From Sulfurimonas hongkongensis (GTDB lineage Bacteria > Campylobacterota > Campylobacteria > Campylobacterales > Sulfurimonadaceae), in assembly GCF_000445475.1 (NCBI RefSeq), contig NZ_AUPZ01000002.1:186001-250000 (forward strand): a stretch of 64,000 nt of DNA, written 5' to 3'. The notes below the pieces were generated by a model, which made no database searches, had not been told where the DNA came from, and saw nothing but the letters and a program-made list of their open reading frames with translations. Shown piece by piece: positions 3,003-30,581 of the stretch. The translations under genes were made by a program, and so were the position numbers. The first letter of the stretch is position 1. Each line of letters begins with the position of its first letter.

Positions 3003-4154
3003 CTATTCTTTAGGTTTTTTAACTAATGATATGGCGGCATGCGCCGCTATTCCAATTGCAGTTACAGTTAAAATTCCAACACCTATCTTATCCGCTGTTG
3101 CATCAGCACCGAGTCCTCCAAAGGTTGTATGATAGAGTCTATCACCTAGTGGTTCATGAACTATTCCCATTTTATCCCAAAAATCAGGTTCACTGCATCC
3201 CATACAGCCATGTCCTGCTTGAATTGGCCAAGATGTACCTTGATTAAATTTTTGTTTTGAGCAGTTGTTAAAGGTATAAGGTCCTTTACATCCTACTTTA
3301 TAAAGACAAAAACCATTTTTTGCGCCCTCATCACCAAACTCTTCTACAAACTCACCTGCATCAAATCTACCTCTCCTCTCACAAGCATCATGGATTCTAA
3401 GTCCATAAGCCCATTTTGGTCTGTTGTAAACATCAAGTGCTGGAAGAGTTCCATATAAAATAAAGTGAAATAGCGTTCCTACAATATTGCTCTCACTAGG
3501 AGGACAACCTGGAACATTTATAACTGGTCTGTTTGTTACATTACTAAGTGCTGTTGCATTTGTAGGATTTGGAGCTGCAGCTTGGACGCCACCAAAGGAT
3601 GAACATGTACCAATAGCAAAAATCGCAGCAGCATTTTGAGATGCATCTTTTGCACTCTGCTCTCCTGTTTTACCATGAGCACCGATTGTTAAAAAGTAAT
3701 CACTCTGCCCATGGGGGATACCACCTTCGACCATTAAGATATATCTACCCTTATATTTTTCAATAGCATGTTCGAGATTTTCCTCAGCCTGCCAACCAGC
3801 TGCTGCCATAAGTGTCTCATGATACTCAAGTGAAATATAATCAAATATCAGACTATCTATACTCGGTGTAGCAGTTCTAAGCAAAGATTCACTACATCCT
3901 GTACACTCTGCCATATGTAACCAAACTAAGGGAAGCCTATCAGCTAACTCTGCTGCCTTTGCAACAAGAGGAGTAAAACTAGCAGGCAACATCAGCATTG
4001 ATGTCATGGCTCCTGCCCAAGTCATAAACTCTCTTCTTGAAAAACCTTTCTCTTCAACCAATTTTGAGATTGAAACTTCCTCATCTAGTTTTGGTAGATT
4101 TGACAACTCTTCTAATCTAGAAGACAACTTGTTAAACAAACTATTACTCTCCAT
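3003..4154 (-). CDS. hydA: Periplasmic uptake [NiFe] hydrogenase small subunit HydA
   Basis: This is the iron-sulfur subunit that relays electrons from HydB to the cytochrome HydC. The 383-residue precursor has a long N-terminal extension with a Tat motif (SRREFM, Arg40-Arg41) followed by a hydrophobic stretch ending near AKA. It then has the proximal cluster motif AECTGCSES (Cys84, Cys87), GTCSSFGG, the GCPPSE segment, and a later Cys-rich region including GCMGCSEPDFW. A C-terminal hydrophobic helix (about residues 355-375) anchors it in the membrane. GGGGAG lies about 7 bases before the ATG. The gene starts the hydABCD operon, and its promoter carries a TetR-type operator at 4186-4203. Confidence 0.97.
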   Translation of the reverse strand: MESNSLFNKLSSRLEELSNLPKLDEEVSISKLVEEKGFSRREFMTWAGAMTSMLMLPASFTPLVAKAAELADRLPLVWLHMAECTGCSESLLRTATPSIDSLIFDYISLEYHETLMAAAGWQAEENLEHAIEKYKGRYILMVEGGIPHGQSDYFLTIGAHGKTGEQSAKDASQNAAAIFAIGTCSSFGGVQAAAPNPTNATALSNVTNRPVINVPGCPPSESNIVGTLFHFILYGTLPALDVYNRPKWAYGLRIHDACERRGRFDAGEFVEEFGDEGAKNGFCLYKVGCKGPYTFNNCSKQKFNQGTSWPIQAGHGCMGCSEPDFWDKMGIVHEPLGDRLYHTTFGGLGADATADKIGVGILTVTAIGIAAHAAISLVKKPKE

Positions 4155-26290: not shown

Positions 26291-26572
26291 ATGAAAAAAT
26301 TAAATCTAACAGCACTTTTACTTGGTGTGGCTCTTTTTATGGGATTTGGAGTAACATCTGCAAGTGCAGAGGGTATGAGGTGTGGTGCTGGCAAATGTGG
26401 GAGTTCTATGAAAAAGCCCGTTGAGGCTGCTGGAAAATGTGGCACTGAGAAAAAAACTACAAAAAGAGCGGGAAAATGTGGTGCCAAAAAAAGAGAGGCA
26501 AAGGAAGCAGGAAAATGCGGTGCCAAAAAAAGAGAGGCAAAAAGAAAAGGAAAATGTGGTGGAAATAACTAG
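26291..26572 (+). CDS. Secreted GKCG-repeat protein, candidate HvfA/bufferin-like RiPP precursor
   Basis: The 93-residue protein has a Sec signal peptide with a likely cut after ASA (residues 24-26). The mature part has six Cys, at 31, 36, 50, 63, 76 and 89. All but the first lie in GKCG, and the last four are spaced exactly 13 residues apart. The repeat unit AGKCGAKKREAKE is rich in Lys and has no other hydrophobic core, so the chain is probably unfolded. Such signal-peptide-plus-GKCG proteins are the precursors of copper-binding bufferin/HvfA RiPPs, whose Cys are modified by a DUF692 enzyme. The DoxX gene downstream fits that operon type, but no DUF692 or DUF2063 gene is in the window. A plain Cys-rich metal buffer is the alternative. 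Confidence 0.8.
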   Translation: MKKLNLTALLLGVALFMGFGVTSASAEGMRCGAGKCGSSMKKPVEAAGKCGTEKKTTKRAGKCGAKKREAKEAGKCGAKKREAKRKGKCGGNN

Positions 26573-26689
26573 CCACTAGCCGTTGTTAAAAAAGTATTTA
26601 TGAAGTAAACTCATTTATTTTTGAAGACGAAAACACTCAAATTTGGTTTTAAACTGGTATAGTAAGTTGGTCTGTAACATGGATTACAT

Positions 26690-26715
26690 ACAAATATATT
26701 TATATTTGTTATAAT
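26690..26715 (+). promoter_or_regulatory. Palindromic operator candidate and -10 of the doxX gene
   Basis: A perfect inverted repeat (ACAAATATA, TT, TATATTTGT; 26690-26709) directly abuts a consensus extended -10 (TGTTATAAT, hexamer at 26710-26715) upstream of the DoxX gene. A regulator bound here would lie between the -35 and -10 positions. No equal copy stands before the GKCG-repeat gene. Confidence 0.55.
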
Positions 26716-26739
26716 ACAAATTAACCTAAGGAGTCTGTC

Positions 26740-27180
26740 ATGAAATTCAAACAAATGTATATGGAATTTTCTCGTTTAAGTGAGTATGGTAAACCACTCT
26801 CTTTATTATTTGCCAGATTAGCAATAGCGTACGGCTTTTATGGTCCAGCAATGAGCAAATGGAAAGATATCGGCTCTGTTTCTGAGTGGTTTGGTTCACT
26901 AGGCATCCCTTTTCCAACTCTTAACGCTTATATGGCAGCAAGTACGGAAGCGTTGGGTGTAGTTTTACTTACATTGGGACTATTTACTCGCCTTATATCT
27001 ATACCTCTTATTGTTGTTATGGTTGTGGCAATTATAACTGTACATCTACCAAATGGTTTTTCAGCTGGAGATAATGGTTTTGAAATCCCTCTTTACTATA
27101 TGTTATTTCTCTTTATATTTGTAACAAATGGAGCAGGAAAGTTTAGTATAGATAGATTGATTTTTGGTGAAAAAAATTAG
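26740..27180 (+). CDS. DoxX-family membrane protein
   Basis: The 146-residue protein has four hydrophobic segments and the DoxX pattern: an N-terminal LARLAIAYGFYGPAMSKW, then WFGSLGIPFPTLNAYMAASTE, a helix pair with GLFTRL, and a C-terminal helix before a short charged tail. Family members with this look (HvfD-type) accompany GKCG-type RiPP precursors. AAGGAG lies before the ATG. The gene is 168 bases after the GKCG-repeat gene and has its own promoter with a palindrome. A role in redox or membrane handling of the secreted peptide is inferred. Confidence 0.88.
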   Translation: MKFKQMYMEFSRLSEYGKPLSLLFARLAIAYGFYGPAMSKWKDIGSVSEWFGSLGIPFPTLNAYMAASTEALGVVLLTLGLFTRLISIPLIVVMVVAIITVHLPNGFSAGDNGFEIPLYYMLFLFIFVTNGAGKFSIDRLIFGEKN

Positions 27181-29675: not shown

Positions 29676-30581
29676 ATGCAAGATTATATAGACTTAAAGG
29701 CACACTATAGATTTACTGAGGAAGAAGCTAATCTTTTAAAGCAATTGCAACCTAGAATGGAACTTTTAGCAGAAGAGTTTATAGATGGATTTTACGATTA
29801 TATTTGGGGCTTTGGAAAGACTGCACAGTTTTTAAAAAACAAAGAGATTATCGCAAATCATCGTAAAAAAATAAAAGAGTGGTTTGTAAATCTCTTTTGT
29901 GGCAAATATGAAATGACTTACTTTATGTATATCTACAGCATCGGAGAGATTCATGTCAGAATAGGTCTTCCAACTCACTATGTAAACTCAGCTTTTACCT
30001 TTGTTAGAACTTTTATACTTCAAAATATTGAAGAGAACTTTGAGAACAAAAAGCTTCATATAAGCGAGATAAAAGCGGTTGAGAAGATTTTAGATATGAA
30101 TCTTGATGTGCTTACAAGTTCTTATAGAGACGGTGAACTTAGTAAGTTTTTATCTCTCTCAAAGTTTGAAAAAACAATCCTCTCAGGACTTAAAAACTTC
30201 AACTCATATGTAAATTTTTTTTTAGCAGGGGCTTTAGCCCTAGTTGCTTTTTTTGCTATTGGACTTTTTGCTTACGATATCTATCTCCTGTTTTTCTCAG
30301 ATATTGGAATAGAGAAAGGGATATTGACAATTTTGGGAAGTTTGCTTGTCCTTTGGGCAGCAATCGAGCTTATACATGAAGAGATAAATCATCTCCAAGG
30401 AAAAGGTTTTGCTATTGGAGCGTTTATTATGCTTGCTATGGCGGCACTTATTAGAAAAGTTTTAATCTACTCGCTATCATCTGAGAAATCTAATGAACTT
30501 TTGACTATAGGCGTTGTTATAGTTGGTTTAGCTATAGCATACTGGCTTGTAGGAGCTAAAAAAAGGACTACAATAATTTAA
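29676..30581 (+). CDS. Protoglobin domain fused to a membrane domain
   Basis: The N-terminal 160 residues form a protoglobin/globin-sensor fold: YRFTEEEANLLKQLQPRME, then GEIHVRIGLPTHYVNSAF with His93 as the likely proximal haem ligand. The C-terminal part has about four transmembrane helices (residues about 178-298) of a PsiE-like kind. The protein probably senses or binds O2, NO or another gas next to the membrane. It has no signalling output domain such as GGDEF or a kinase. AAAGGACAGC precedes the ATG. It stands alone between a repeat region and pgsA. Confidence 0.8.
   Translation: MQDYIDLKAHYRFTEEEANLLKQLQPRMELLAEEFIDGFYDYIWGFGKTAQFLKNKEIIANHRKKIKEWFVNLFCGKYEMTYFMYIYSIGEIHVRIGLPTHYVNSAFTFVRTFILQNIEENFENKKLHISEIKAVEKILDMNLDVLTSSYRDGELSKFLSLSKFEKTILSGLKNFNSYVNFFLAGALALVAFFAIGLFAYDIYLLFFSDIGIEKGILTILGSLLVLWAAIELIHEEINHLQGKGFAIGAFIMLAMAALIRKVLIYSLSSEKSNELLTIGVVIVGLAIAYWLVGAKKRTTII

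Follow-up and report, generated by a model that had tools for sequence, protein, structure and literature searches.

The locus considered here raises the question of how a secreted GKCG-repeat peptide of the HvfA kind is handled in a cell that lacks the enzyme known to modify such peptides. The window, as we use the word, is the whole analysed stretch of 64,000 nucleotides from Sulfurimonas hongkongensis. The original prediction placed a peptide gene and a DoxX gene at this site, with neither DUF692 (MNIO) nor DUF2063 genes in the flanks, and proposed a search of the complete genome for both. Neither is present in the flanks, and in the genome as a whole (2.30 Mb, 28 contigs, 100% complete) we found no match to PF05114 (MNIO/DUF692) and no match to PF09836 (DUF2063). 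A Campylobacterota-centred MNIO profile (alignment A3), for which 14 MNIO sequences from Campylobacterota and two from Methylophilales were used, gave no match in this genome either. An MNIO encoded elsewhere in the genome is thus ruled out by the PF05114 and profile searches and, since both MNIO and DUF2063 are missing genome-wide, no enzyme of the known kind is left to serve the peptide from a distant site, as had been suggested for an orphan precursor.

The peptide itself is as described beforehand: the reading frame confirms a 93-residue Sec-exported precursor, which starts MKKLNLTALLLGVALFMGFGVTSASA|EGMRCGAGKCG... (signal 1-26, set by inspection) and carries six cysteines at residues 31, 36, 50, 63, 76 and 89. 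Five of these lie within GKCG and one within RCG, and the last four are spaced by exactly 13 residues. The mature part has a charge of +16 and a pI of 10.1. The Sec signal and the GKCG repeats that mark HvfA/Buf_EGKCG precursors are both present, the former judged by inspection and from the AlphaFold model, which consists of a single N-terminal helix (residues 5-20) and an otherwise disordered chain (mean pLDDT 53.7, uninformative). The NCBIfam HvfA-family repeat model NF050137 is matched at 21.1 bits, narrowly above its cut-off of 19.5, and the HvfA equivalog model NF050188 is not reached (15 bits against a cut-off of 95). It should be kept in mind that the name of NF050137, 'oxazolone/thioamide-modified RiPP metallophore', would label proteins of genomes which have no known route to that modification.

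The original prediction had made itself depend on homologues with conserved GKCG spacing in related genomes. A homologue is present in 88 of the 135 Sulfurimonas genomes, a set that includes some incomplete MAGs and a count that is sensitive to the detection threshold (in genome G121 the peptide was missed by the search with P0001 and found by the profile). The window peptide differs from its nearest relative (L001) by 26 amino-acid changes that spare every cysteine, and only one of them, R30K, falls among the 18 KCG/RCG residues (whole protein, hypergeometric p 0.013; mature part only, 0.006). The fetched loci yielded 88 distinct peptides, in which lysine precedes 83% and glycine follows 84% of the cysteines; a cysteine spacing of 5 (KCGxGKCG) is the most frequent and one of 13 the second. 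The peptide is duplicated in several genomes and present in many genera. Judged by these comparisons of sequence, the family is real and constrained, far from chance, and the refuting condition set by the original prediction does not hold. A second GKCG-type peptide of 121 residues and 19 cysteines is encoded on contig C7 of the same genome (L054:5909-6274), with neither HvfX nor GMC nearby. In Arcobacter sp. EP1 (L017:5566-6162) a PCuAC copper-chaperone domain (PF04314, 130 bits) is fused to three C-terminal SCGQGKCG repeats.

The DoxX protein clearly exceeds the cut-off of 80 bits of the HvfX equivalog model NF050144 and is linked to a GKCG peptide, which makes it an HvfX-type protein; with both family models above their cut-offs, the description of the site as bufferin/HvfA-like is borne out. 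The DoxX gene had also been credited with a promoter of its own. The gene is where it was said to be, but a scan of the region gave 14 promoter-like sites against 12.2 +/- 4.3 in shuffled sequences, that is, no excess; topology, promoters and the signal peptide were assigned by inspection. Within the genus, 62 of 66 HvfX-bearing genomes also have the peptide, and HvfX above the cut-off is absent from 26 of the 88 peptide-bearing ones.

Table 1. Genes of the peptide locus, in window coordinates.
Feature	Position	Strand	Basis
GKCG-repeat secreted peptide precursor, 93 aa	26291..26572	+	NF050137 match, homologues, AlphaFold model
DoxX-family membrane protein, HvfX type, 146 aa	26740..27180	+	PF07681 68 bits; NF050144 124.6 bits
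Tat-exported Gluconate_2-dh3 small (hitchhiker) subunit, 174 aa	27229..27753	+	PF13618 40.2 bits; TTG start; TRRSFLKS
GMC-family FAD/Fe-S flavoprotein, 556 aa	27750..29420	+	Domain match, alignment, structure model

The unit does not end with HvfX. The start codon of the GMC gene overlaps the stop codon of the Gluconate_2-dh3 gene by 4 bases (ATGA), and the twin-arginine (Tat) motif of the latter recurs in 48 of 51 homologues. The order found again and again in the genus is peptide, HvfX, sometimes a membrane FMN Glu_synthase-like protein, Gluconate_2-dh3 and GMC. Thus, the two-gene variant that had been proposed gives way to a conserved unit that takes in the next two genes, and the locus is best read, from gene order and homology, as four genes (peptide, HvfX, Gluconate_2-dh3 and GMC) extending to 29420. 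Further on, at 29676-30581, the window encodes a protoglobin joined to a PsiE-like membrane domain. Many Sulfurimonas encode the FMN Glu_synthase-like protein between HvfX and Gluconate_2-dh3, and it comes directly after HvfX at L062:9808-11562 and L161:7040-8797 (GMC and MNIO loci). As a candidate enzyme it was rejected, being absent from the window and also found after HvfX in the MNIO locus L161. A periplasmic MBL-fold protein (c8) was likewise set aside; it lies near some peptides, yet also near the MNIO loci L170 and L171.

In order to see which partners accompany the peptide elsewhere, we compared its neighbourhoods and its distribution in Campylobacterota, as had been advised, and found that it goes with either MNIO or the GMC pair. 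In the genus, 78 genomes have both peptide and GMC, 10 the peptide alone, 8 GMC alone and 39 neither (Fisher p 8e-17, a test that ignores phylogeny). MNIO occurs in only 5 of the 135 genomes and was not detected in 83 of the 88 peptide carriers. The five MNIO-bearing Sulfurimonas also have the GMC pair, together with a second peptide in those inspected. Next to MNIO, four of them encode a short precursor with a lipobox-like LASGC or MASGC (L020, L021, L022, L023, L062:7707-7892); the genus-type peptide of these genomes is a different protein, encoded at another site.

Across 298 genomes of the class Campylobacteria, the peptide profile matches 49, the GMC clade 44 and MNIO 13. Among the 49 peptide carriers, 37 have GMC only, 10 MNIO only, one (G410) both and one (G373) neither. 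In G373 the profile had picked up a YtkA-domain protein with a short GKCG stretch, which is no genuine peptide. The GMC clade is thus present in 38 of 49 carriers and in 6 of 249 peptide-less genomes (Fisher p 9e-32). The mutual avoidance of GMC and MNIO in the carriers has a p of 1.4e-8 by genome and 5e-4 by genus; kinship is allowed for only through the genus-level counts and two mixed genera. One of these genera (g55) has one species of each type; in the other (g32) MNIO is found in two species, with an adjoining GKCG peptide (L099, L100), and GMC in two others. Of the 38 genomes, 27 have the peptide and GMC genes within about 6 kb of each other, pointing the same way or diverging according to the family; in seven genomes they are far apart on a single chromosome. 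The MNIO loci read peptide-MNIO-DUF2063-(HvfX), and those outside the genus have no adjoining GMC. It is this near-exclusion, and not linkage alone, that forms the main argument for the flavoprotein pair standing in for MNIO.

The original prediction had further set the peptide apart from known precursors by its Lys-rich spacers (AKKREAK). This distinction falls away: MNIO-linked peptides, nearly all of which come from the same class, are equally Lys-rich and do not differ from GMC-linked ones in length, cysteine number or pI (median 9.36 vs 9.41). Several loci show variations on the theme. In G167 (L143, g16), one of three related GMC genomes without the peptide, a Met/Cys-rich MKCGSGMM peptide (3121-3537) adjoins Gluconate_2-dh3/GMC, and ZnuA/ABC-3 metal transport genes adjoin the same GMC locus. 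At L063:3954-4655 a membrane protein of the DUF4395 family, extended by a GKCG tail, is encoded between a short GKCG peptide and Gluconate_2-dh3/GMC, and at L148 6509-7201 a putative DUF4395-like protein lies near a peptide.

These distributions bear on the possibility, already raised in the original prediction, that the peptide is an unmodified Lys/Cys buffer. It would then act as a metallothionein-like periplasmic copper buffer whose thiols bind the metal directly, and the GMC pair and HvfX would have a separate redox task. MNIO is indeed missing from nearly all carriers in the genus, the peptide is predicted to be disordered, and GKCG repeats do occur fused to a copper chaperone. In PMC12452194, 67 of 2583 Buf_EGKCG genomes are without MNIO, and such rare precursors are presumed to be unmodified or no longer functional; activity without modification is proposed there for these cases. 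However, the GMC clade seldom occurs in genomes without the peptide and all but excludes MNIO, a pattern that is hard to explain if the clade is functionally unrelated to the peptide, and free thiols would need a reductant in the oxidising periplasm. We regard the unmodified buffer as somewhat unlikely.

Modification by another, unrecognised enzyme, either a highly divergent MNIO or one of a different class, seems improbable. Our searches consisted of Pfam models and one MNIO profile, and two weak, sub-threshold matches were left in the class (G287 and G315). Inspection of the locus of the DUF692-like match in G287 (L110) showed sugar-nucleotide genes on either side and suggested an ordinary TIM-barrel enzyme that helps to make surface sugars. 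The MNIO profile has no match in the genome of the window and, over 75 genomes selected for the GMC clade or the peptide and for the absence of MNIO, gave a single match with an E of 0.004 (G014); the same profile recovered all five MNIO-bearing genomes in the list, G410 included. The repeated enzyme neighbours of the peptide in MNIO-free loci outside the genus are Gluconate_2-dh3 and GMC, with HvfX.

What kind of protein is the GMC flavoprotein? It is homologous to the alpha subunit of FAD glucose dehydrogenase and the large subunit of fructose dehydrogenase (phmmer E 1e-50), and its AlphaFold model superimposes on 6a2u_B with a Z of 34.7 (rmsd 3.4, 500 residues); the overall fold with its FAD domain and the hitchhiker subunit of BcGDH/FDH-type enzymes are thus both found in the window pair. 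In BcGDH, His476 and Asn519 are the likely catalytic pair and Cys212, Cys218 and Cys222 ligate a 3Fe-4S cluster (PMC6719666). In the alignment, the window protein has Leu and Pro at the two catalytic positions and retains the three Fe-S cysteines, the last spacing being one residue longer. The same holds for the clade: in 48 of 48 aligned homologues both catalytic residues are lost, with Leu and Pro in their place (Ala in two), and the three cysteines are kept. The FAD-linking His105 of BcGDH is also replaced in the window protein.

It could be argued that the pair is an ordinary respiratory sugar-acid dehydrogenase whose linkage to the peptide is incidental. The modelled fold is shared with the glucose and fructose dehydrogenases, and Campylobacter jejuni does have a gluconate dehydrogenase, Cj0414/Cj0415 (PMC4178425). 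A separate clade of 573-residue GMC proteins, from genomes of two other genera that are probably Campylobacter, keeps both His and Asn and is split from the window clade with 100% support; no peptide was found in stretches of about 3.4 kb around its genes, and size and genus suggest that it corresponds to Cj0415. Membership of the window protein in this C. jejuni-type clade is ruled out by the tree and by its missing His and Asn. Since the catalytic pair is gone in all aligned homologues and retained in the gluconate-dehydrogenase-type clade, since no cytochrome subunit gene was noticed beside the window genes, and since GMC presence tracks the peptide, an ordinary dehydrogenase is decidedly improbable.

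In a tree of HvfX, proteins from MNIO and GMC loci are intermixed, with at least six switches by parsimony, only two of them forced by well-supported branches. This indicates that partners were switched or lost more than once, as would also be expected if the locus were a decaying remnant in which the precursor outlived its MNIO, but such a remnant is hardly credible for a peptide whose KCG cores stay strict while its spacers drift, and which is kept in 88 of 135 species, duplicated in several genomes and found across many genera.

The reading that we prefer, and hold at about even weight, is that the window encodes a variant of the HvfA/oxazolin (GKCG) metallopeptide system with four genes and no need of MNIO, whose place is taken by the flavoprotein pair. 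Its foundations (the gene set, the absence of MNIO and DUF2063, the peptide-GMC association, the near-exclusion of GMC and MNIO and the loss of the alcohol-oxidising residues) come from sequence and comparison. In this four-gene system the peptide would enter the periplasm via Sec with its cysteines free, and the GMC flavoprotein would reach the same compartment on its Tat hitchhiker, Gluconate_2-dh3. There, GMC may act on the peptide thiols or on their bound metal, and electrons would leave it through the 3Fe-4S site to the respiratory chain, possibly via HvfX. The product would work as a buffer in the periplasm by binding Cu(I) or a comparable soft metal. Where MNIO is used, the chemistry precedes export and takes place in the cytoplasm; here, it would follow export. 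We infer that the effect of the pair on the cysteines is modification, redox control or electron transfer; the loss of His and Asn could also reflect an electron-transfer role without any action on the peptide. The copper role is suggested by analogy with the family (HvfA and bufferins; PMC13419390, PMC12452194) and by the PCuAC fusion.

A bolder version, which we consider unlikely, makes GMC/Gluconate_2-dh3 an enzyme of a new kind for peptide maturation, one that oxidises cysteines in the periplasm with the help of flavin, replaces the iron enzyme MNIO and modifies GKCG after export, the product being perhaps the same or a similar copper-binding group. Thiols ionise more easily than alcohols, and therefore the lost catalytic base would fit a thiol substrate. 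Hydroxymethylfurfural oxidase, a GMC relative, oxidises primary thiols (PMC7414962), which makes action on cysteine thinkable, but as a chemical precedent only: that enzyme depends on a catalytic His base absent here, and it uses small-molecule substrates and O2. Whether a flavoprotein is able to replace MNIO in making a copper-binding peptide is a testable question. MNIO-free GKCG precursors are the norm in one large genus and occur widely in its class, with a consistent alternative partner, and our findings suggest an unrecognised alternative form of a copper-handling system. Our literature searches found no paper describing a GMC partner for GKCG peptides, and none naming both Sulfurimonas and DUF692; in the cited sections of the text of PMC12452194, no GMC partner is described for Buf_EGKCG peptides.

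Among known systems, the flavoprotein pair resembles the gamma-alpha unit of Burkholderia FAD glucose dehydrogenase and the Gluconobacter fructose dehydrogenase, with which it shares a Tat hitchhiker and a GMC subunit bearing surface 3Fe-4S cysteines (Z about 35); it differs from them by Leu and Pro in place of His476 and Asn519, by the replaced His105 and by a cytochrome c subunit that was not noticed nearby in the window. The bufferins (Buf1/Buf2) and fontiphorin, thiooxazole metallophores, have in common with the window system a secreted Cys peptide, a DoxX protein and a proposed role in copper buffering but, unlike it, are modified by MNIO and DUF2063. Another close parallel is oxazolin, the HvfABCX system of nontypeable Haemophilus influenzae (Buf_EGKCG), which shares the Sec-exported KCGxGKCG/GKCG peptide and the DoxX-type HvfX. 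Oxazolin has MNIO (HvfB) and DUF2063 (HvfC), whereas the genome of the window is without both, and the window peptide is Lys-rich, has mostly single GKCG motifs at 13-residue intervals and is followed by the Tat-exported Gluconate_2-dh3 and GMC.
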